Source: Isosphaeraceae bacterium EP7
GTDB taxonomy: Bacteria > Planctomycetota > Planctomycetia > Isosphaerales > Isosphaeraceae
Assembly (NCBI GenBank): GCA_038400315.1
Contig: CP151667.1
Location: 6,893,174-6,957,173 of the forward strand
Direction: 5' to 3'
Length of the DNA: 64,000 nucleotides
The position numbers were made by a program, and so were the translations under genes. Each line of letters begins with the position of its first letter. Within the stretch, counting starts at the first letter, position 1. Below the pieces are notes generated by a model. The model saw only the letters and a list, made by a program, of their open reading frames with translations, was not told where the DNA came from and made no database searches. Shown piece by piece: positions 3,139-15,302 of this stretch.

Positions 3139-4206
3139 ATGTTCGATCATGCTCAGAAAAGTCGCTGGGGCCGGATGTTCACGATCTTCGTCGTCGGTCT
3201 CCTGGCCATGGTGGTCCCGATCCCGCGATCGGTGCGAAGGTCGTTGCGAAGGACTTACCGTTCCCAGCTCCTCGTCGCCAGCCTCCTGATCTCGCTCGTT
3301 CCAATCGGAACGGCGCAGGCGGGCAAGGTAGGCTGGCTGGATGACGTGGTCCAGGAAGTCGTCCGCGAGGCCAAGGCCGGCGGGCGGGTGGCGGCCCGGG
3401 GTGGAGACGGCGCGACGGCCTCGACAAAGGCGGCGGGACGACTGTTCGCCGGCGAGGCGGGCGAGAGCCTGGAGAGCCTTGCCCGGCGTCATGACGACAT
3501 CGCCCGGTTCGGCCGCTCCGCCGAGCCCGCGTCCGACGTCCTGATGCAGACCCGGTTCGCACGCCTGCTGAAGCCCGAGCCCGAGATGGTCCGGACCTTC
3601 GCGGCCCTGAGCCCGGCCGAGCGGAGGCTGGTCGTCGAGGTGGGCGAGGCCGCCCAGCGCCTGGCCCTGCGATATCCGGGACAGGCCGACACCATGATCC
3701 GGGCCCTGGGCACCGAAGGGCTCTCGGCCGTGCGGGTTTATGGCGACGACGTGGCCGAGGTGATTGTGAAGGAAGGGCCAGGCTCGGTCGACGTCCTTCG
3801 CAAGACGGGCCGAGGGGGCTGGAAGTTCTTCACCGAGACCGTGCTTCCCAATAAAGGGAAGCTGGCCGCAGCGGGTGTGCTGGCGGCGTTCCTGGCCGCC
3901 CCCGACAAGTTCGTGGACACCGCCGGACGCGTGACCGAGTACGCCGTGGCCGAGTTTGCCAAGGCAGGGCTGAGCCTGGGCGGTGCGGCCACGCGCGGGC
4001 TGGAGTCGGCCGTGGGGAGCACCCTGGCCGCCTACGGCCTGAACTTCGCCGCGGCGCGATATCTGGGCATGGGCCTTGCCGGCTGCGTGATCGTGCTGGC
4101 CACGATGGTGCTCATCGGCCTGCCCGTGGCCTGGGCCCTCCGCCCGTTCACCGGCCTGGCTCGCCTGGCCAGCGCGCCGTTCCGTCGGTCGGTGCGGGTG
4201 GGATGA
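3139..4206 (+). CDS. Membrane protein of unknown function, first gene of GTPase cluster
   Basis: A 355-residue protein starting at ATG 3139 with GAGGA 8 nt upstream. It has hydrophobic segments near 13-30 and 43-62, the second ending TAQA like a signal peptide. A long helical, charged middle follows (65-250, rich in E, R and A), and a membrane helix near 310-340 precedes a basic tail. No catalytic motif is visible and I do not recognise a family. It is followed after 66 bp by the PEGA-like membrane gene, and then by the hydrolase, GTPase and GAP1-N-like genes on the same strand. A structural or scaffold role in that complex is inference. Confidence 0.7.
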   Translation: MFDHAQKSRWGRMFTIFVVGLLAMVVPIPRSVRRSLRRTYRSQLLVASLLISLVPIGTAQAGKVGWLDDVVQEVVREAKAGGRVAARGGDGATASTKAAGRLFAGEAGESLESLARRHDDIARFGRSAEPASDVLMQTRFARLLKPEPEMVRTFAALSPAERRLVVEVGEAAQRLALRYPGQADTMIRALGTEGLSAVRVYGDDVAEVIVKEGPGSVDVLRKTGRGGWKFFTETVLPNKGKLAAAGVLAAFLAAPDKFVDTAGRVTEYAVAEFAKAGLSLGGAATRGLESAVGSTLAAYGLNFAAARYLGMGLAGCVIVLATMVLIGLPVAWALRPFTGLARLASAPFRRSVRVG

Positions 4207-4272
4207 GCAGATGAGGATCGTCGGGGCGAAACCTGTCCGCCCTGACCTCGCCCGAGGGAGGGGAGCGTAGCC

Positions 4273-5013
4273 ATGCCCACCGAACTTCGGCCTTCCGGTC
4301 GGACGGCGATCTCCGTCCGATGCCTGAATCCGAGGAGCAAGATTTCGGTGGGCTCGGGGACGGTCTACGTCGACGGCCGGAGGGTCGGCCTCACGATCGC
4401 GGGCAAGGATCGGGCGTTCCGGGTCCGGCCTGGCATTCACACGGTCGAGGTGCGATATGGGATGTCGCGGTCGAACGAGGTGGACCTGAAGCTGGCCCCC
4501 GGCGATCAGGCGGCGCTCGCCTTCAAGCTGGGCGGAGGCTCTCGGCCGATGTTCGGCTCGGTGAGCGCTCTGTCGTGCTACATGGCGTTGCTGCCGATCC
4601 TCGTGGGGCTTGCCTACGCGGCGCGTGAGCCCTGGGGGAATCTTGTCCCTGCCGTGTTGAACGCGACCACGTTCACGCAGGCCATGATGCCCTGGCTCTA
4701 TTACGTCGCCCCGGGGTTGTCGTCCTGGACGGTCCTGGCGCTGCTCCTCAACCTGGTCTGGCTAGCTGGCCTGCCGCTGGTCTTGCTCAATCGGGGGCCG
4801 GGCACCGGGGAGTTGCTGCGCCAGGTGCTGGGCGGTGGCGAGATCATCCTGAAGCAGGAAGACCGGCTGGCGAGCCTCTCGCCGATCGACCTGATGGTGA
4901 CCGATCCGGGGCCGACGCCGGAGGATCATCTGAGCTTGCAGGCCGCGAGGAACGCACGGGCGACGTTGCGTAGCGTGCAGCGGCCGGCATCGCGGGATGA
5001 ACCGGCCGAATAA
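4273..5013 (+). CDS. PEGA-like domain membrane protein
   Basis: A 246-residue protein with a strong ribosome site (GGGAGGGGAG). Residues 25-75 contain VYVDGRRVG, then VRPGIHTVEV, the pattern of PEGA-type small beta domains (a displayed loop of the form xVDGxxxG, then PGxHxVxV). Two membrane helices follow at about 98-117 and 151-172, and a soluble tail of about 70 residues ends the protein. PEGA domains usually sit on the outside of the membrane on surface proteins or kinases; their ligand is uncertain. The gene lies between the helical membrane gene and the hydrolase lipoprotein and is probably co-transcribed with them. Confidence 0.7.
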   Translation: MPTELRPSGRTAISVRCLNPRSKISVGSGTVYVDGRRVGLTIAGKDRAFRVRPGIHTVEVRYGMSRSNEVDLKLAPGDQAALAFKLGGGSRPMFGSVSALSCYMALLPILVGLAYAAREPWGNLVPAVLNATTFTQAMMPWLYYVAPGLSSWTVLALLLNLVWLAGLPLVLLNRGPGTGELLRQVLGGGEIILKQEDRLASLSPIDLMVTDPGPTPEDHLSLQAARNARATLRSVQRPASRDEPAE

Positions 5014-5170
5014 TCAGGGGGACTTACCCGGTGCTGGCGATCACGCGGACGGATCCGTTGAAGCCAGGGGTGGGTGGATCCGGCGGCGGAGCTCCCATCT
5101 GGATCATGAGGTAGAGTTGCCGATTCCCCCGGATTCCCCGGGAGATCCGCCAACATTCCCGGGGACTAGG

Positions 5171-6391
5171 ATGGTCTGGACGAGGCTGATCCCTGGACCC
5201 GGGCCCGGTTTGGTGGCGGCGCTGATGTTGATTACGTCGGCGGGGTGTGCCTCGCCCGGGGTGCGTGCGGCCGGGGGAGACACGCAGGAATCCAAGGGCT
5301 TCCTCCTCTTCGCCAACAACGGCAAGGTGCCCGAGCTGGAAGTGCCGAGGCTGAAGGGGCCGGACGACGTGGCGCCCGGGAAGGCGGGGGCGGAGTCGAC
5401 CGGGGTGGAGACCTGGATGGTCCACACCCGCGCTTCCGAGCAGACGACCCACTCGGATTTCTGGCGGACGATGGACGTCTCCCAGATCGATCCGGCCGGG
5501 GGTGCGCCCAAGCCCGCCCCTGCCAGAACCCTCCTCAATTTGATGGCGGGGCGGACGGTCGTCATCCTGGTGCACGGCAACAACTACTCGTATGAGGCGT
5601 CGACCCGCGAGGCGCTGCGGGTGCGGGACGAGCTGGCCGGCGGCGGCGGGTTCACTTCGGATGCCCTGTTCCTGATCTTCGACTGGCCGAGCGAGCGATT
5701 GCGCCCGGGCCTCGTCGGCGACCTGAACGAGAAGGCCCGGCGGTCGAGGATCGCCGGCTCGCACCTGGCGATGTTCCTGCGCGAGGCGCCTCCCGAGACG
5801 AAAGTCTGCCTAATGGGCCAGAGCGACGGCGGGCGTGTGGTGCTCACCACGCTGCACTTGCTCTCGGGGGCTGAACTCCCCAAGTTCTTGAAGGAACCCG
5901 CGATCCAGCTGGAATCGGGCCGCTCCGACCTCCACATGCGTGTCGTGACGCTGGAAGCCGCCGTCGGCCACCACTGGATGAACCCCGGCGAGCGGCTTCA
6001 GCACGCGGTGGGGATGACCGAGGGTTGGCTGAATCTCTTCAATCGCTTCGACTACGCGCTCGCGGTTTATGGCCTGGGTCAGTACACGGGAGTGAGGTCG
6101 GCACTCGGCCGTAGCGGCCTGCGGCCGGATGACTTGCGCAAGCTGGGGGATCAGACCTGCCTGATCGAGCAGATGGAGCTGCACTCCATCGGCGGACTCC
6201 GCCACCTGATCTATGTCGAGGCATTGTCCGACCCCGAGGTGCTCCAGAGAGTCACGCGATACACGTCGTGGGCCCCGGTGCCCGTCGACCCGGGAGGCAA
6301 ACCTTCGCAGCCCAGCGGCGGGTCGGTCGACTCCGGCGGACCTGGGTCCGACCTGACGCCGATCTTCGAAGGGATGCCCAATCTTCGCTAG
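5171..6391 (+). CDS. Alpha/beta-hydrolase lipoprotein (DUF900-like)
   Basis: A 406-residue protein. Starting at ATG 5171 gives a textbook lipoprotein leader: a hydrophobic run (GLVAALMLITSAGC) with lipidated Cys26. An upstream in-frame ATG at 4997 would bury that leader and overlap the previous gene. The hydrolase core shows VILVHGNN at 132-138 (oxyanion-hole HG), LIFDWPS at 168-174, and the nucleophile elbow GQSDGG with Ser218. His338 or His345 may complete the triad. The elbow is GQSDG rather than the common GHSMG. DUF900 enzymes have no well-established substrate. It sits in the GTPase cluster, so a membrane-tethered lipase, esterase or effector role is possible (inference). Confidence 0.75.
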   Translation: MVWTRLIPGPGPGLVAALMLITSAGCASPGVRAAGGDTQESKGFLLFANNGKVPELEVPRLKGPDDVAPGKAGAESTGVETWMVHTRASEQTTHSDFWRTMDVSQIDPAGGAPKPAPARTLLNLMAGRTVVILVHGNNYSYEASTREALRVRDELAGGGGFTSDALFLIFDWPSERLRPGLVGDLNEKARRSRIAGSHLAMFLREAPPETKVCLMGQSDGGRVVLTTLHLLSGAELPKFLKEPAIQLESGRSDLHMRVVTLEAAVGHHWMNPGERLQHAVGMTEGWLNLFNRFDYALAVYGLGQYTGVRSALGRSGLRPDDLRKLGDQTCLIEQMELHSIGGLRHLIYVEALSDPEVLQRVTRYTSWAPVPVDPGGKPSQPSGGSVDSGGPGSDLTPIFEGMPNLR

Positions 6392-6480
6392 ACGCGAACG
6401 AACCGATGGGGGGATGATGGGGCGGGCGAAGGTGTCTGCGCCCGGGTGGTGGACGAGGCCGAAGGAGTAGGACCCGTCGC

Positions 6481-8790
6481 ATGTCGAACCGGCGCAAGGC
6501 CCATCTCGACGCGTTGGAAGCCCGGCTGACCGGGCCCAGGCGCATCGCCCTCTTCGGCCACCGGGACGTGGGCAAGACGACCCTGCTGGCGATGTTCTAC
6601 CGCCAGGCGTCGACGGGCCAGATCCCGGGGCTCAGGCTGGCGGCCGTCGACGCCACCAGCGCCGAATACCTGGCCGAGAAGATCGCGCAGATCGAGTCGG
6701 GCGAGCCCCCCGCCGGCACCCTGGCCGAGACCGAGCTGCGTCTACGGCTCTACCACGGCCGGGCGCGGTTCGACCTGATCGTGCGGGACTACCAGGGGGA
6801 GCACGTCACCCTGGGCTCCGACGAGCCGATCCAGGCCTTCTTCGCCGAGTGCGACGCCGTGCTGCTCTGCCTCGACCCCGAGGGGCCCGCCAGCCCGGCC
6901 GAGCGCCGGCGGCGGCAGCAGGAGGTGGAGAACCTCCTGGAACGGTACATCGAGAAGTCCGACGACGCCACCACCGACCGGCCGGTCGCCCTGGTCCTGA
7001 CCAAGTTCGACCGCGTTCCCTACCGGGACGAGGGTGACGGCGCGGTGGTCGAGCACCTGGTCGAGGCCCGCTACGGGATGACCCGGCACTTGCTGAGCAC
7101 CCACGCCCCCCGCAGCGCCATGTTCGCCGTCAGCTCCTACGGCCACGGCGCCGTCGGCGGCCGGCCCCCCGCCGAGCTTCACCCGATGGGCCTGGAAGGC
7201 CCCCTGGTCTGGCTGGCCGAACAACTCGAGGCCGGCGACCACGAACGCCTGGAATGGCTCTGGGACCTGGCCCCCGACGACCTCCCCAGGCTAAGCCGGT
7301 GCGTCGCCTCCTACGAGCAACGCTACCCGCGCTCCGAGCGGCTCGACACGCTGCACTCAAAGCTGGCCACGCTCAGGCGGCGACGCAATCGTCGGGTCGG
7401 GGCCAGGCTGGTGCTCGCACTGGGGCTCCTCGTCGCTGGCGTGGCGGGATACGACGCCCTGGGGTTCCAGGCAGCCTCGACCTTCGAGCGAAATCATGCG
7501 GCCCCCGCGGTGGCCAAGCGCTGGGAAGACCTGATCGCCTGGCATCCGTCGATGGGCGTCTTCTGGCCGTCCTACTCGAGGCGGGCCGAGCGCAAGCTTG
7601 CCGAATGGCGGGTGAAGGCCGCTGACGTCCGCGAGACGGTCGGGGCTCCCGACCCCGGCCTGACCGAGCAGCTTACCAGGCTGAAGGTGCAGTCGCCCGA
7701 TCTCGCCCCGGCAATCAAGAAGGTGGAGGAACGCCGCAGCCAGGCCGAGCACGACGCACGCTGGAAGGCCCTGAAGGCCGACGCACTGGCCGCGGCCGAT
7801 CAGCCCGAGAAGCCGATGGACCTGGCGCGTGCCTTCCTGAGGGAGTTCCCCGACTCGGCCCACAAGGATGAAGCCCTGGCCCTGATCAACTCGATGCGCA
7901 GCAAGGTGGACGACCGCGCCGCGCTGGAGGAGCGCGACCTGATCGACGACCTGGTCCGCGCGTCGAAGCTGCCCAATGCCGACCTGGCCGACGTGATCGC
8001 CCGCGCCCAGATCTTCATGAGCGAGCACCCGCGCAGCCGCTGGCGGGGCGAGGCCAACGACCTCCTTGAGCGGTCGGTCAAGCAGGTGGACGACCGCGAC
8101 ATCGAGCGAGCCCGCCAGTTCTCGCGCGACCACCGCACCAGCTTCGCCGCGCGAATCGAGCGCTATGACGACTACCTGAAGGCCCACCGCGACGGCGGCC
8201 AGTCGATCAGCGAGGCCACCGAAGCCAAGAACCGGATCCTGGCCGAGTGGGACGCCTATTCTTACAGGCTGGCCTACGACCATTGGGTCGCCCACCCCGA
8301 CGACGCCGCCGAGGTGGCCACCCGACTGCGGTCCTATCTGCAAGACCACCCCGACGGGCATTACACCCGGGACGCCCAGACGTTCGTCACCTGGTGGGAG
8401 AAGGTCATCGCGCCCGGGCAATATCGGGTGACCCTGAAGTGGGGCGAGTTCCCCCCCGAGGTCGGCAAGAACCTGGCCGTCGTCCTCGAGGTCGCCGGCG
8501 TGACGCACGGACCTTCGCCGGTGATCCCCAATACCTTGCGGCCGATCTGGCAGTATACGTTCCCTCGGCCGATCACCTGGAAGCTGGGCGACCCCGTGAC
8601 CATCAAGGTGGTGCGCGACGTCGGCTGGTTCTCCAGCAATCTGAAGCCCCTGATCACCTTGCAGACCCCCAAGGGGGATGCGCTCGGGATGCGGCTTCTG
8701 ACCGGTCCGATCAAGCCCTCACGCGGCGGGAAGACGACCTTGGTCTTCGAGTCCGACTTCGCCATCCCGCGCCTGACCCGACCGGATTGA
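6481..8790 (+). CDS. Membrane-anchored TRAFAC-type GTPase with long helical stalk
   Basis: A 769-residue protein. The GTPase motifs are clear: G1 GHRDVGKT at 26-33, G3 DYQG at 103-106 and G4 TKFD at 174-177, followed by a helical region and a basic stretch (RRRRNRR). A single membrane helix lies near 308-326. Residues 330-630 are charged helical sequence with TPR/coiled-coil character. Residues from about 645 to 765 are beta-rich and look C2-like or sandwich-like. The GTPase should face the cytoplasm (inference). It resembles the GTPases that accompany GAP1-type proteins, and its partner gene begins 7 bp after the stop. Membrane remodelling, secretion or a defence response are all possible; nothing here decides between them. 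Confidence 0.8.
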   Translation: MSNRRKAHLDALEARLTGPRRIALFGHRDVGKTTLLAMFYRQASTGQIPGLRLAAVDATSAEYLAEKIAQIESGEPPAGTLAETELRLRLYHGRARFDLIVRDYQGEHVTLGSDEPIQAFFAECDAVLLCLDPEGPASPAERRRRQQEVENLLERYIEKSDDATTDRPVALVLTKFDRVPYRDEGDGAVVEHLVEARYGMTRHLLSTHAPRSAMFAVSSYGHGAVGGRPPAELHPMGLEGPLVWLAEQLEAGDHERLEWLWDLAPDDLPRLSRCVASYEQRYPRSERLDTLHSKLATLRRRRNRRVGARLVLALGLLVAGVAGYDALGFQAASTFERNHAAPAVAKRWEDLIAWHPSMGVFWPSYSRRAERKLAEWRVKAADVRETVGAPDPGLTEQLTRLKVQSPDLAPAIKKVEERRSQAEHDARWKALKADALAAADQPEKPMDLARAFLREFPDSAHKDEALALINSMRSKVDDRAALEERDLIDDLVRASKLPNADLADVIARAQIFMSEHPRSRWRGEANDLLERSVKQVDDRDIERARQFSRDHRTSFAARIERYDDYLKAHRDGGQSISEATEAKNRILAEWDAYSYRLAYDHWVAHPDDAAEVATRLRSYLQDHPDGHYTRDAQTFVTWWEKVIAPGQYRVTLKWGEFPPEVGKNLAVVLEVAGVTHGPSPVIPNTLRPIWQYTFPRPITWKLGDPVTIKVVRDVGWFSSNLKPLITLQTPKGDALGMRLLTGPIKPSRGGKTTLVFESDFAIPRLTRPD

Positions 8791-8797
8791 GCCCAAC

Positions 8798-10246
8798 ATG
8801 ACCCGGGACGTCGAGCAGGAGCCCGCCCCGGAACAGGGCGACGCGGTGATTTCACCCCCTCGGCGGGGCCAGGGCCAGGTCGTCGAGTTCGAGCAGGCGG
8901 TCTACGGCAACTTCGGGTTCTGGGATAAGGGTTATGCCCTGCTGGGGCACTCCCCCGGATGCAGGCCCGAGTGGCTGGCCGATTTCAAGGGGGCCTGCCA
9001 GCGGTTTGGCGAGGCCACGGGCGGGCCCCTTCCCGCCGACGCCCTCTTTGCGTTGCGCCTGCCGAGCGGCACCTGGGCGGTAGTTGGCGTGACGCCGCAA
9101 GGAGACGACGACCGTGGACGGCCCGGCGCCCTGGCCTTCCACGGCCTTTTTCTGGCGGCGTCCGAATATCGCAAGGTGGGCTTCGACCCGTTTGCCCTGG
9201 CCGGAGCGCTCAGGTGTGATTGGGGCGTGCAGCATGCGGCCCTGCCACGCGGGAGAGTTATCGCGGAAGCCGGCGACGCGACGACCGCCGACGCGGATGC
9301 CCTCTGGGTCGCACGCTGGCTGGCCTGGGGACGGCGTGTGGTCCTCGAGTCGTCGACGCCCATCGAACCGCTCGCCAGGCGTGCCTGGGCCTCGCTGCCG
9401 GCGCGGACACGCAAGCGGAAGTCGCTGGCGACGCTGGCGTTCAGCAACGCGGGCAGGTTCGACCTGCTGGCCGTGCCCAAGCTGGCCGGCGTGACGCTCG
9501 ACCCGTCCTATCTGGTGATGGAGCCCGGTCAGGTTGGGCTGAGGCTCGAGCCGCCGCCGCGGCCCTGGTCCAGCCGCAGGCGCGTCGGCCTGGCGGCCGG
9601 TCTTGTGGCGCTGGCGTTCGTCGGGGTGGCACTGGCCTGGCTGGCGGCCGCCCCACGCACCGTGCCCGAAGCCCCCGAGCCCATCCCGGTGCCCGTCATG
9701 CCCCGCGTCGATGTCCGGCCGGCCCCCCCAACGGCAGCCCCGGCACCCGACGACGATCGGAGGGCGGCCGAGGCGCTGGACTCGCTGGCCGGACGGCTGG
9801 GGGTCGACACCGGGCCGGGCCTCGACACCCGGGTCGCCCGTCTGGCCGATCGGCTCGATTACCGCGGGCCCCTGCTGGACGACGAGGAGCTGGCCGCGCT
9901 TGCGGCCGAGCCGACCGACTCGGAGAGTGCCAGGCGCGAGCGTGACCTGGCCCTTGCCTGGCACGCGCACCTGCTCCGGTTCCGCCACGACGAGCCCTGG
10001 GCCACCGGCGACGGCCGAGAATCCGCCACCCAGCAGGCCGAGCGGCTCGCACGCTGGGCCGGCGCCGCCCCGGGCGAGCCCGAGACGTCGGGCGAGACCG
10101 TCCCACGCACCGCGGCCGAGCGGGCGGTCGACGCGGTGGCCCGTCACATCGCGTCACCGGTCGCCGTACATCCCAGCCCGCTGTCGCCCCGCTATCCGGC
10201 GCTCCGCGATTACGTCCGATTCCTCTCCAGGCTCCCCCGTCGCTGA
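8798..10246 (+). CDS. GTPase-associated protein with GAP1-N-like domain and membrane helix
   Basis: A 482-residue protein whose ATG follows the GTPase stop by 7 bp. Residues 28-165 begin EFEQAVYGNFGFWDKGYALL, then GHSPGC. This pattern (Q-x-x-YG...GY-x-LL-x-x-S) is what I remember for the N-terminal domain of GTPase-associated protein 1 (GAP1-N), a component of predicted NTP-dependent conflict systems. A membrane helix lies at about 264-285. After it come a Pro/Ala-rich linker and a charged helical C-terminal region of about 190 residues. It lacks the long middle and C-terminal parts of classical GAP1 proteins, so it may be a membrane-tethered short form. The domain assignment is from memory of the motif and needs a profile search. 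Confidence 0.65.
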   Translation: MTRDVEQEPAPEQGDAVISPPRRGQGQVVEFEQAVYGNFGFWDKGYALLGHSPGCRPEWLADFKGACQRFGEATGGPLPADALFALRLPSGTWAVVGVTPQGDDDRGRPGALAFHGLFLAASEYRKVGFDPFALAGALRCDWGVQHAALPRGRVIAEAGDATTADADALWVARWLAWGRRVVLESSTPIEPLARRAWASLPARTRKRKSLATLAFSNAGRFDLLAVPKLAGVTLDPSYLVMEPGQVGLRLEPPPRPWSSRRRVGLAAGLVALAFVGVALAWLAAAPRTVPEAPEPIPVPVMPRVDVRPAPPTAAPAPDDDRRAAEALDSLAGRLGVDTGPGLDTRVARLADRLDYRGPLLDDEELAALAAEPTDSESARRERDLALAWHAHLLRFRHDEPWATGDGRESATQQAERLARWAGAAPGEPETSGETVPRTAAERAVDAVARHIASPVAVHPSPLSPRYPALRDYVRFLSRLPRR

Positions 10247-10333
10247 GTTGTGAAGGGGCGGTGCGGCCGTTATCGTGAAGCAATGCCCCCATCGGCCCTT
10301 TCCGCCCGTCATCCCAATGGTTCGGAAAACCCC

Positions 10334-10840
10334 TTGAAGACCCAGGCCATCGGACTCGGGTTGGCCATGATTGCGCTCATCGCCGGCTGCGGCGGCCAGG
10401 AGGTCACCCCCGAGCGGCTCGGGGCCGCCCGCCAGACCTGGCAACGCGCCCGAGTGGACGACTACGACCTGGAATGGACGAGCACCGGCGCCCGCAACGT
10501 GCATTACCGCGTCTTCGTGCGAAACGGCGAGGTCGAGGCGATCTACAGCGTCCTTCCCGATGGCCGCGAGGTCGTGGCCAGGCCGGGCGAGCCGAAATAC
10601 TTCGGGGTCGACGGCCTCTTCCGCACGATCGACGACGACCTGGCGCAGCTCGGGTCGGCCAATCCCTTCGGGCAGCCGGCCGGGACGAAGATCGTGCTAC
10701 GCTTCCGGCCGGATCCGACCTATGGTTATCCGATGAGCTATCGGTGCGACGTCCTGGGCACGCCGCAGACCCGCGCCCTGGATGTGCGCAAGTTCGTCCC
10801 GAACCCGGGCCGAGCGATCCCACCGCCGGGGCCGAGCTGA
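10334..10840 (+). CDS. Small lipoprotein, DUF6174-like
   Basis: Using TTG 10334 as start gives a compact lipoprotein leader (MKTQAIGLGLAMIALIAGC, Cys19) with GGA 9-11 nt upstream. An ATG at 10283 would add 17 residues before the leader and has no ribosome site. The mature 149 residues begin with a helix (LGAARQTWQRARVDDYDLEW), then strands with the pattern Y-x-V-x-V-R-N-G-E-V. That layout (W....DYxx...y.v.V.nGev) resembles the DUF6174 family, whose function is unknown. It follows the GTPase cluster by 87 bp on the same strand and may or may not belong to that operon. Confidence 0.65.
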   Translation: MKTQAIGLGLAMIALIAGCGGQEVTPERLGAARQTWQRARVDDYDLEWTSTGARNVHYRVFVRNGEVEAIYSVLPDGREVVARPGEPKYFGVDGLFRTIDDDLAQLGSANPFGQPAGTKIVLRFRPDPTYGYPMSYRCDVLGTPQTRALDVRKFVPNPGRAIPPPGPS

Positions 10841-10860
10841 CCAGAACCCGGGGACGCACG

Positions 10861-11685
10861 ATGCGGACACGCCCCTCTTCTCCGCCCGAATCGAAGGCCA
10901 CCCCCGTGAATGAGCAAGAGACGACTCGCCAGGACCGCCAGTGGAGCCGTCACGCGGCACGCTACGACGAGCTGTTCCTCGACCCGTTCCGCCCCGGGGT
11001 CGTCAACCCGCTGCTGGCCATGCTTGACGCTGTGGACGCGCCGACCACGAAGACGGTGGCCGACCTGGGCTGCGGCACGGGCCCCCTGCTGCCGTACCTG
11101 GTGGGGCGATTCGGAACCGTGATCGCGCTGGACTTCGCCCCGGCGATGATCCGGCGGTCGCAGGCCAGGCTGGGGGCCCTGGCCTCGCGGGTGACCTTCC
11201 ACGTGCGAGCGATGGACGAGCTGAGTGATTACGCCGGCAAGCTCGACCTGGCGGTGGCGGTCAACTCGCTGGTGATGCCCGACGTGCGCGAGATCGACCG
11301 GACGCTGCGGGCGATCCGCGCCACGTTGCGGCCCGGCGGCGTCTTCGCGGGGGTTGTCCCCTCGATCGACGCGATCCACTATCACACGATGTTGCTGATG
11401 GACCAGGCCCTGGACACGGGCGCCGAGCCCGAGGCGGCCGAGCGGTCTGCGGCGTTCCTGGCCGAGCACACCTACTACGACTTCGCCATCGGCCGATTCG
11501 AGTTCCGCGGCCTGCGCCAGAAGTTCTGGCAGCCGTTCGAGCTGAAGCACCGGATGGCCCGCGCGGGATTCACCTCGATCGAGCTGGATCAGGTCCTCTA
11601 CCCCTGGGACGAGAACATGGCCGGGTTCGAGCAGCTCTCGGGCCACCCCCGGAGCTGGGACTGGTCGTTCGTGGCGCGCGCCTGA
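10861..11685 (+). CDS. Class I SAM-dependent methyltransferase
   Basis: A 274-residue protein. Motif I is VADLGCGTGP (66-75) and an acidic end of strand 2 is present (ALDFAP). Typical motifs follow, including LRPGGVFAGV in the post-IV region. The ATG at 10861 has GGGGA about 8 nt upstream; a GTG at 10906 is a possible alternative. The acceptor cannot be read from sequence. The family includes small-molecule, quinone and lipid methylases. The gene starts 20 bp after the DUF6174-like lipoprotein stop, so the two may be co-transcribed. Confidence 0.8.
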   Translation: MRTRPSSPPESKATPVNEQETTRQDRQWSRHAARYDELFLDPFRPGVVNPLLAMLDAVDAPTTKTVADLGCGTGPLLPYLVGRFGTVIALDFAPAMIRRSQARLGALASRVTFHVRAMDELSDYAGKLDLAVAVNSLVMPDVREIDRTLRAIRATLRPGGVFAGVVPSIDAIHYHTMLLMDQALDTGAEPEAAERSAAFLAEHTYYDFAIGRFEFRGLRQKFWQPFELKHRMARAGFTSIELDQVLYPWDENMAGFEQLSGHPRSWDWSFVARA

Positions 11686-14037: not shown

Positions 14038-14321
14038 ATATCTAAATTAATCGCTGTATTGGTGCAGGCATGTCACGAATGCCGGGTTCTCCCGCGTTTG
14101 TGCCCCCTCGTCCTTCGACGCGATTCCGTTCATCGATGGCAAGAACCTGCCTGCGTGAGAAATCTCGCGCGTGGACCGGTCTGGCATTCGATACCGCTCG
14201 CGGCTGAATATCCCGGCATAACCTCCCGGACCTTCCTTGCCAAATGGCAGGGATTGACCTTGTCCGGCATTGCGCACCGCGATCGTTTCGATCGGTCCTC
14301 CAACAAACTGAGGCCATTTTC

Positions 14322-15302
14322 ATGATTCGCAAGCGTTCAGGCTTCACACTGATCGAGCTCCTCGTGGTGATCTCCATCATTGCCGTCCTCATTGCCCTCC
14401 TCCTGCCAGCCGTTCAATCGGCCAGGGAGGCCGCTCGGCGTGCGCAGTGCGTCAACAATCTCAAGCAATTCGGTCTCGCTCTGCATAACTATCACGACGT
14501 TAACGGGGCGTTTCCGATCGGCAACGCCATGAACGTCGCGACCAATGACAAGACGAACTTATCTCAGCACACGCGTCTGCTCCCGTTCATGGAGCAAACG
14601 GTGATTGCTAATTCGATCAACTTCAATCTCAACTCGACCATGCCCGGGAACTCGACTGCTCTGGTGACCAGCGTCGGCATCTTCGTCTGCCCTAGCGACT
14701 CGGCGAATGTGCTGCCCGCGGGTTGGGCGGGAGTCAATTACCGGTTCAACCACGGGACGATCCCGCTGAACGCCTTCGGGCCGCAGGATACCTCCGCCGT
14801 GAACACCGCGATGCCCGCGCCCAACGGCACCTTCTTCCTGGACTTCCGCGTCGGGATGGCCGAAATCACCGACGGAACCAGCAACACCGCCGCGATGAGT
14901 GAGCATATCAAGGGCGATTTTAGCAACTCGATCTCGACGGAGTTATCCGACACCTACCGCCCGGGGACCTACCCGGCCAACGCCGACGAGGCGGTCAGCA
15001 TGTGCCGCCAGGTCGATGTCCTGGACCTTTCCAAGCAGGGCAACTCCAACGTCGGCGCACCTTGGATGTCGGACAGCCACACAGGCACGCGTTACTACCA
15101 CACCGGCGTGCCGGGCTCGCGGTCGTGCATGTACCCGCCGCAGCGGATCAGCACCACCGCCAACAGCCGCCACCCCGGAGGCGTCAACGTCACCATGGCC
15201 GACGGCTCGGTCAGGTTCGTGAAGACCACGATCAGCGTCCAGACCTGGCGAGCCGCCGGCACTCGCAATGGTGGCGAGGTCATCAGCGCCGACAGCTACT
15301 GA
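14322..15302 (+). CDS. DUF1559 family pilin-like prepilin protein
   Basis: A 326-residue protein. The N-terminus is a type IV pilin-like prepilin leader: MIRKRSGF, then [20 protein letters not shown] with the conserved Glu, so a prepilin peptidase should cut between Gly and Phe. The body is the DUF1559 (SBP_bac_10) domain expanded in planctomycetes. It includes the [16 protein letters not shown] helix and the C-terminal H-x(9)-DG block ([14 protein letters not shown]). ATG 14322 has GAGG about 10 nt upstream; the longer frame from 14244 lacks this. The function is unknown, probably a pseudopilin-like cell-surface component. The small lipoprotein that commonly follows such genes comes next, 43 bp downstream. 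Confidence 0.93.

Follow-up and report, generated by a model that had tools for sequence, protein, structure and literature searches.

DO-GTPases, which are defined by a conserved Walker B glutamate, have been described together with GAP1-N2-type proteins in predicted conflict systems that combine a constant core with parts varying even among close relatives (Kaur et al. 2020, PMC7159879). One or more N-terminal zinc ribbons are present in 60% of these GTPases and two paralogous GTPase genes in 38%, neither feature being obligatory (PMC7159879). Near pspF operons, DO-GTPases have also been predicted to function in membrane-related stress (PMC11237479). In other GTPase systems, proteins of the DENN and longin types serve as GTPase binders or regulators, and the longin domain is believed to have arisen from prokaryotic activators of GTPases (PMC3521125). 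In the literature surveyed, DO-GTPase/GAP1 pairs are predictions without biochemistry. Here, we describe such a pair in Isosphaeraceae bacterium EP7, within a window of 64,000 nucleotides (positions 6,893,174–6,957,173 of a contig of 6,996,328 bases; host genome, 7.2 Mb). The locus comprises five plus-strand open reading frames (ORFs), named G1 to G5 from first to last (window positions 3139–10246), in which G4 encodes the GTPase and G5 its putative GAP1-N2 partner. As the initial annotation had noted, all five genes lie on one strand with short gaps, the distances from G1 to G5 being 66, −17, 89, and 7 nt.

The conserved core of this locus consists of three genes, G1, G4, and G5. In the family set (45 genomes with the host genome counted, 26 of them high-quality), G4 was detected in all 45 genomes, G1 in 43, and G5 in 42, and each was present in all 26 high-quality genomes. 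The genomes in which one core gene was missing (G012, G024, and G035) are drafts that are 64–81% complete. Full-length core copies are single; what looks like extra copies in G001, G002, G011, and G025 consists of contig fragments or weak matches (E 1e-6 to 1e-4). The same genes are found in Singulisphaera, Paludisphaera, Aquisphaera, Tautonia, and several records named only "Isosphaeraceae bacterium". A search of the class set (297 genomes) with G4 at E 1e-10 recovered the 45 genomes of this family and seven of another family, f94. In the phylum sample (294 genomes, 155 high-quality), the G1 profile was matched in three genomes and the G5 profile in four, with the host counted in each, and the single G4 query in 12 including the host, the remainder being weak or partial; because these phylum and class searches score few candidates in each genome, they may overlook weak relatives. 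Pfam GAP1-N2 domains are patchy in the phylum sample, occurring in 21 of the 294 genomes and 10 of the 155 high-quality ones. G2 and G3 have a very different distribution from the core, being present in three and nine of the 45 family genomes, respectively, with the host counted. The proposal in the initial annotation that all five genes form one system was therefore rejected; likewise, the gene order G1–G4–G5 is often kept in relatives, whereas G2–G3 is not.

The arrangement shares several features with the systems of Kaur et al. (2020, PMC7159879), namely a DO-GTPase with the Walker B glutamate, a GAP1-N2 protein encoded downstream, membrane association, and domains beyond the membrane helix of the GTPase. 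In contrast to those systems, it contains one GTPase gene, shows no match to a zinc ribbon, and includes a new partner, G1; the GAP1 protein is reduced to the N2 domain and the start of the M domain, often within 220–290 aa; and the genes occur throughout one family, essentially as single copies. The FNIII-repeat partner of the described systems was not found among G1–G5, the further neighbors having been scanned in part.

G4 (6481–8790) encodes a GTPase with a single membrane helix, as initially annotated. It matched DO-GTPase2 (PF19993) over residues ~20–185 with an E-value of 3.9e-14 and 53.3 bits against a cut-off of 27, and all 25 members of the G4 alignment (24 relatives and the window protein) matched this family at E up to 1. 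The relatives share 49–63% identity with the window protein, and the P-loop, the DYQGE motif, and the T and D of a T-x-x-D motif are invariant in all 25 members, as is the Walker B glutamate (E107) that marks the DO-GTPases. Since the only hydrophobic helix spans residues 306–324, the GTPase domain probably lies inside and the remainder outside, as charge and domain order indicate. Behind the helix follow BamD/YfiO-like repeats, matched by 13 of the 25 members (best E 1.5e-6), and a possible C2-like C-terminal domain. No zinc ribbon was matched in G4, which is the single GTPase gene among G1–G5. The profile search of the Protein Data Bank (PDB) gave no relative of G4 up to E 0.01; up to E 10 it returned nine rows, two of them below 0.1, one covering the C2-like part (E 0.016) and the other the P-loop part (E 0.024). 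Separately, an NCBIfam model named "PTPDL family" matched 16 of the 25 members (best E 3e-7), with the window G4 not among the matches listed.

G5 (8798–10246) lies directly downstream of G4, and its assignment rests largely on its relatives. The initial annotation had suspected a GAP1-N protein in this product, next to a GTPase and in a membrane setting. Taken alone, the window protein matched no model of Pfam, NCBIfam, or PADLOC at E up to 1, and the host genome yielded nothing when searched for GAP1-N2. Its relatives did match: in the G5 alignment (39 members, comprising 38 of 40 loci, with L078 and L081 left out, and the window protein), PF20013 was matched by 24 members at E up to 1 (best 3.2e-6), the window protein not being one of them, and GAP1-M by four (best 0.0014), while GAP1-C had no match among the 39. 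Of the three domains (N, M, and C) expected of GAP1 proteins, the G5 family thus recognizably shows N2 and the beginning of M only. In f94, the G5 relatives in L202 and L139 stand directly behind G4 relatives; the former matched GAP1-N2 with 27.4 bits against a cut-off of 24, and the latter matched below the cut-off. Profile comparison with hhalign between the G5 family and 22 planctomycete GAP1-N2 sequences (22 of 25 loci; L156, L168, and L170 dropped) gave 97.9% and a score of 89.3, compared with at most 20.9 in 50 column shuffles, and the control profiles of G1 and of a ~680-aa protein encoded upstream of it in relatives gave 0.3% and 0.2%. When only the 14 most typical GAP1-N2 sequences were used, the value dropped to 52.8% and the score to 36.3 (shuffles at most 21.5); the link between G5 and GAP1-N2 therefore runs partly through intermediate sequences. 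A second GAP1-N2 comparison used 23 of the 25 loci, with L156 and L168 dropped and L170 kept in the wrong frame. On these sequence comparisons, the N-terminal domain of G5 (residues ~26–255) is a divergent GAP1-N2 domain, and a GTPase/regulator relation between G4 and G5, as initially proposed, is plausible.

Behind this domain, G5 carries a hydrophobic helix (265–283) and a C-terminal helical part. The description of G5 as a membrane protein thus holds for the window protein but does not extend to its relatives in general: 22 of the 38 are only 220–288 aa long, and 20 of these 22 have no hydrophobic helix behind the N-terminal domain. A search of the PDB with the G5 profile up to E 1 returned seven rows, none helpful and none a DENN-named chain, the best (E 0.0044) being a designed coiled coil. 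As a separate observation, GAP1-N2 proteins from other planctomycete families in L162, L164, and L171 (at about position 1500) share with G5 an EQA-x-F-type start and appear to be intermediate between it and typical GAP1-N2 proteins.

Structural modeling points to a longin/DENN-like fold for this domain. The AlphaFold2 model of G5, built from 23 sequences, has a mean pLDDT of 82.8, and residues 27–137 are predicted to form strand, strand, helix, three strands, and two helices, which is the longin order, followed by a second alpha/beta lobe. In Foldseek, a chain of the folliculin complex was the single match below E 0.001, followed by TagF of A. baylyi at E 0.002. The first 1000 Foldseek chains were given a second look by VIA-align, in which middling Z-scores are common. 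Residues 26–251 of G5 aligned with A. baylyi TagF at Z 9.5 (4.5 Å, 196 residues, 9% identity), and the protein from P. aeruginosa, PA0076, which we take to be TagF, gave Z 6.5. DENND1A in complex with Rab35 (Z 8.1, 6.0 Å, 212 residues), DENND10 (Z 7.8, 4.6 Å, 200 residues), DENND1B (Z 7.5, 5.8 Å, 210 residues), and an Asgard longin domain (Z 7.0, 3.6 Å, 127 residues) were also among the matches. By title, the top 18 rows (Z 9.5 to 4.7) are all TagF, DENN, longin, GATOR1/KICSTOR/SEAC, or folliculin chains, and ClpB (Z 4.0) is the highest-ranking entry of any other kind. It is the coherence of this list that argues for a predicted fold of the longin/DENN type, with TagF and the DENN Rab exchange factors as its nearest neighbors. 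Of the DENN lobes, the first two are assigned in the G5 model by predicted fold only, and the third (d-DENN) was not recognized. The resemblance of TagF to the longin domain of Sec22b has already been published (PMC3325213), and the terms longin, roadblock, DENN, and TagF do not occur in the main text of the study that introduced GAP1 (PMC7159879). In the literature searched, which was without preprints and most subscription journals, we found no paper tying GAP1 or DO-GTPases to longin/DENN folds and none on Isosphaeraceae and GTPases.

The resemblance to TagF keeps a secretion-related reading alive, in which the locus would be a relative of a secretion-machine membrane complex such as the TssM/TagF part of type VI secretion. 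Among solved structures, TagF comes closest to the fold of G5, and the order of parts in G4 (NTPase, membrane helix, helical outer part, and possible beta domain) can be likened to the layout of TssM. However, the 11 Pfam and four NCBIfam families matched by the 39 G5 alignment members include no TagF model, and no IcmF model appeared for G4 among the matches listed (25 of 38 and 25 of 45 families). Neither was a sheath, tube, or spike gene seen among the few conserved neighbors scanned, whole genomes not having been searched. The type VI secretion regulator TagF/ImpM, reported to act on Fha (PMC5995506), thus resembles the predicted fold of G5 without a match of sequence family (PMC5995506, PMC3325213), and we consider kinship with a secretion machine very improbable. 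An ordinary secretion locus, against which the initial annotation had set its own reading, is not indicated by sequence because no TagF or IcmF family is among the matches listed.

G1 (3139–4206) is the third core gene and matches no known family. Its start was taken as the ATG at 3139, within a longer ORF opening at 2890. In agreement with its initial description as a helical membrane protein, the product is predicted to be helical (model pLDDT 73.8), with hydrophobic segments near the N-terminus and a membrane helix at the C-terminus, and appears to be exported. No Pfam family was found for it, the best E-value among 22 relatives being 0.054, and the NCBIfam model TcpD_dom matched residues 4–24 only, with 18.5 bits against a cut-off of 24. 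Many genera encode a ~680-aa exported-type helical protein upstream of G1 (e.g., L059:6823–8769), without a Pfam family; of the 31 genomes in which the upstream sequence exceeds 2.5 kb, 17 contain it, once ~6 kb away, and it is absent from the 64 kb window. Kinship between G1 and this protein was considered and found to be unsupported (hhalign, 6.1%).

Given that the core is family-wide, essentially single-copy, and well conserved, unlike recognizable GAP1-N2 in the phylum, we favor a reading in which G1, G4, and G5 form a core envelope module around a membrane-anchored GTPase switch, with a slot for optional cargo; our confidence in it is evenly balanced. The frequent linkage of the three genes, the adjacency of G4 and G5 relatives in two f94 loci, the invariant GTPase motifs, the coherent list of structural matches, and the predicted role of DO-GTPases in membrane-related stress speak for it as well. 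On the cytoplasmic side, the GAP1-N2 domain of G5, with its predicted longin/DENN-like fold, would bind the GTPase domain of G4 and set its nucleotide state, acting either as an exchange factor or as an activator of hydrolysis. This state would then be passed through the single membrane helix to the outer helical repeats and the possible C2-like domain, and the outer part of G4 may act on the envelope jointly with exported G1. The cargo in the slot would be optional, consisting of a small membrane protein and a hydrolase here and a nuclease-like/PIN pair in several other genera. The distribution suggests a core function in the envelope, as opposed to an optional anti-virus defense, and from it we infer a housekeeping role. 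A broader proposal, which we regard as possible but doubtful, is that DO-GTPases are regulated in bacteria by GAP1-N2 proteins of the longin/DENN type and that, in these planctomycetes, such a pair is a core trans-envelope switch for membrane or envelope remodeling, either a parallel to the DENN–Rab pairs that steer eukaryotic membrane traffic or their distant relative. With the DENN Rab regulators (PMC3521125), G5 would share, in the predicted fold, a longin lobe with a second alpha/beta lobe behind it, and its gene adjoins a GTPase gene; it differs in having only 7–10% identity, no recognized d-DENN lobe, a DO-GTPase instead of a Rab as partner, and a bacterial host. The MglA/MglB (roadblock) pairs similarly combine a bacterial GTPase with a regulator of longin-related fold (PMC11016934, PMC3521125), whereas here the GTPase belongs to a different family and G4 joins a membrane helix and outer domains to the GTPase domain.

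The variable part of the locus is the slot that separates G1 from G4. In 25 of the 36 genomes with both genes on one contig, it measures at most 400 nt and shows no nuclease or PIN match. A nuclease-like gene (HSDR_N type, below cut-off) and a PIN_12 gene occupy it together in G001, G018, G026, G043, G044, and G016, with the pair cut by a contig end in G018 and the PIN frame broken in G016; a nuclease-like gene stands alone in G037, and weak traces were seen in G003, G007, and G010. The PIN profile was matched in eight of the 45 family genomes and lay in the slot in seven of them, so the nuclease-like/PIN pair belongs to this place. The pair, as at L109:2441–3614 and in the same slot in L049, L140, L215, L061, and L063, is in several states of decay. 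On the G4 tree, which has long branches and 10 open forks and was built without the fragments G024, G035, and G516, the nuclease slot requires eight changes, which would fit an old gain followed by many losses as well as gain on repeated occasions.

In the window, the slot holds G2 and G3. G2 (4273–5013) encodes a small membrane protein with two hydrophobic helices, and the PEGA-like character first assigned to it was rejected, as no PEGA profile matched at E up to 1; DUF2846 (E 0.04) and ChapFlgA_N (E 0.093) remained below cut-off. G3 (4997–6391, with an alternative start at 5171 that would abolish the overlap with G2) matched DUF900 (PF05990) with 33.6 bits against a cut-off of 20.5, and its G-[QH]-S-x-G and His motifs are kept in an alignment of 10 relatives. 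Its annotation as an alpha/beta-hydrolase is thereby sustained, but the lipoprotein part is not, SAGC standing in place of a canonical lipobox. One of the further G2 copies, in G025, occupies the same slot, and the window and G025, both with the small membrane protein, group as sisters on the G4 tree with weak support (SH-aLRT 94, unstarred). The hydrolase lies in the slot only in the window, the eight other genomes carrying it elsewhere, and only in the window does it stand beside the small membrane protein. Since the slot has different cargo in different genera, G3 may be an effector, as first suggested.

This variability keeps alive the conflict reading put forward in the initial annotation, an anti-phage or self/non-self GAP1-N2 system in which the GTPase and GAP1 protein would be the constant switch and the slot genes exchangeable effectors. 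The core components come from families proposed for such systems, and the slot content varies between genera. Nevertheless, every one of the 26 high-quality genomes of the family contains the core, essentially as single copies, compared with the patchy GAP1-N2 in 21 of 294 genomes; most slots are short and match neither nuclease nor PIN; the slot cargo is broken or partial in several genomes; and the best PADLOC match of G1–G5 reached only E 0.0061. The core thus extends throughout the family, and it is the slot that varies between genera. The conflict reading is weakened accordingly, and we consider it unlikely, though it is the most serious of the rivals. Overall, the initial observation is partly confirmed and its interpretation partly supported.

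Several points weigh against the envelope-switch reading. The contrast between the core and GAP1-N2 sets one family beside a phylum-wide sample, and variable cargo between conserved genes has the look of a conflict system. Regarding structure, a shared fold shows no function, most structural matches of G5 have Z below 8, and the superposition on the folliculin chain is poor (TM 0.13, rmsd 36 Å). The C2 match in G4 is weak, being made by nine of the 25 alignment members with a best E-value of only 0.018, and G1 has no usable PDB fold match (Z at most 3.8, uninformative). Linkage also has gaps. In 35 one-contig genomes, G5 follows G4 within 400 nt in 26 and at 919 nt in one, and in the other eight it lies apart, at 11 kb to >0.6 Mb; seven more genomes carry the two genes on separate contigs. 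Of the seven f94 loci fetched around G4 relatives, two have a G5 relative directly downstream, four have none near G4, and one ends at a contig end; G1 was not found in any of them. This last absence, together with the rarity of G2 and G3 and the placement of G1 58 kb from G4 on the other strand in G034, favors mere proximity, whereby G4 and G5 would be the sole functional pair and G1, G2, and G3 independent envelope genes. For G1, that explanation sits poorly with two observations: in 35 of the 36 one-contig genomes, G034 being the exception, it precedes G4 on the same strand, 27 times by no more than 400 nt and another eight times by no more than 2.5 kb, and its family distribution is nearly equal to that of G4. 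Taken for all three genes, mere proximity is in our view quite improbable.

What is new here is a reduced, family-wide arrangement of known domain families with a new partner, G1, and, at the level of the predicted model, a longin/DENN fold for GAP1-N2 that we did not find in the literature searched. The case offers a reduced DO-GTPase/GAP1 pair across one bacterial family together with a testable mechanism, a longin/DENN-type regulator acting on the adjacent GTPase. If the envelope-switch reading is true, at least one branch of GAP1 systems would belong to core cell biology instead of accessory conflict functions, and this in a phylum noted for its unusual membranes. The question of how membrane-traffic regulators originated would then also have to take in a bacterial GTPase regulator of the two-lobed longin type.

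The surroundings of the core contain further recurrent genes. Directly downstream of G5 lies a plus-strand DUF6174-like gene (10250–10840; PF19671, 23.4 bits against a cut-off of 23.8), with similar matches in 14 of 40 family loci, mostly close to G5, and the two are perhaps on one transcript. It is followed on the same strand by a SAM-dependent methyltransferase gene (10852–11685; Methyltransf_25, 60.5 bits), whose cluster was found in 30 of 50 stretches compared. The two genes (10250–11685) stand near G5 in many relatives, even where G5 is apart from G4. Upstream of G1, the window encodes a PEP-CTERM-type exported protein (1708–2631), for which PF07589 is just below the cut-off, and a 346-aa ORF (43–1083) rich in Gly/Thr repeats and without a Pfam family. 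Farther downstream, at 14244–15302, lies a DUF1559 pseudopilin-like protein (N_methyl and SBP_bac_10), of a kind common in planctomycetes.

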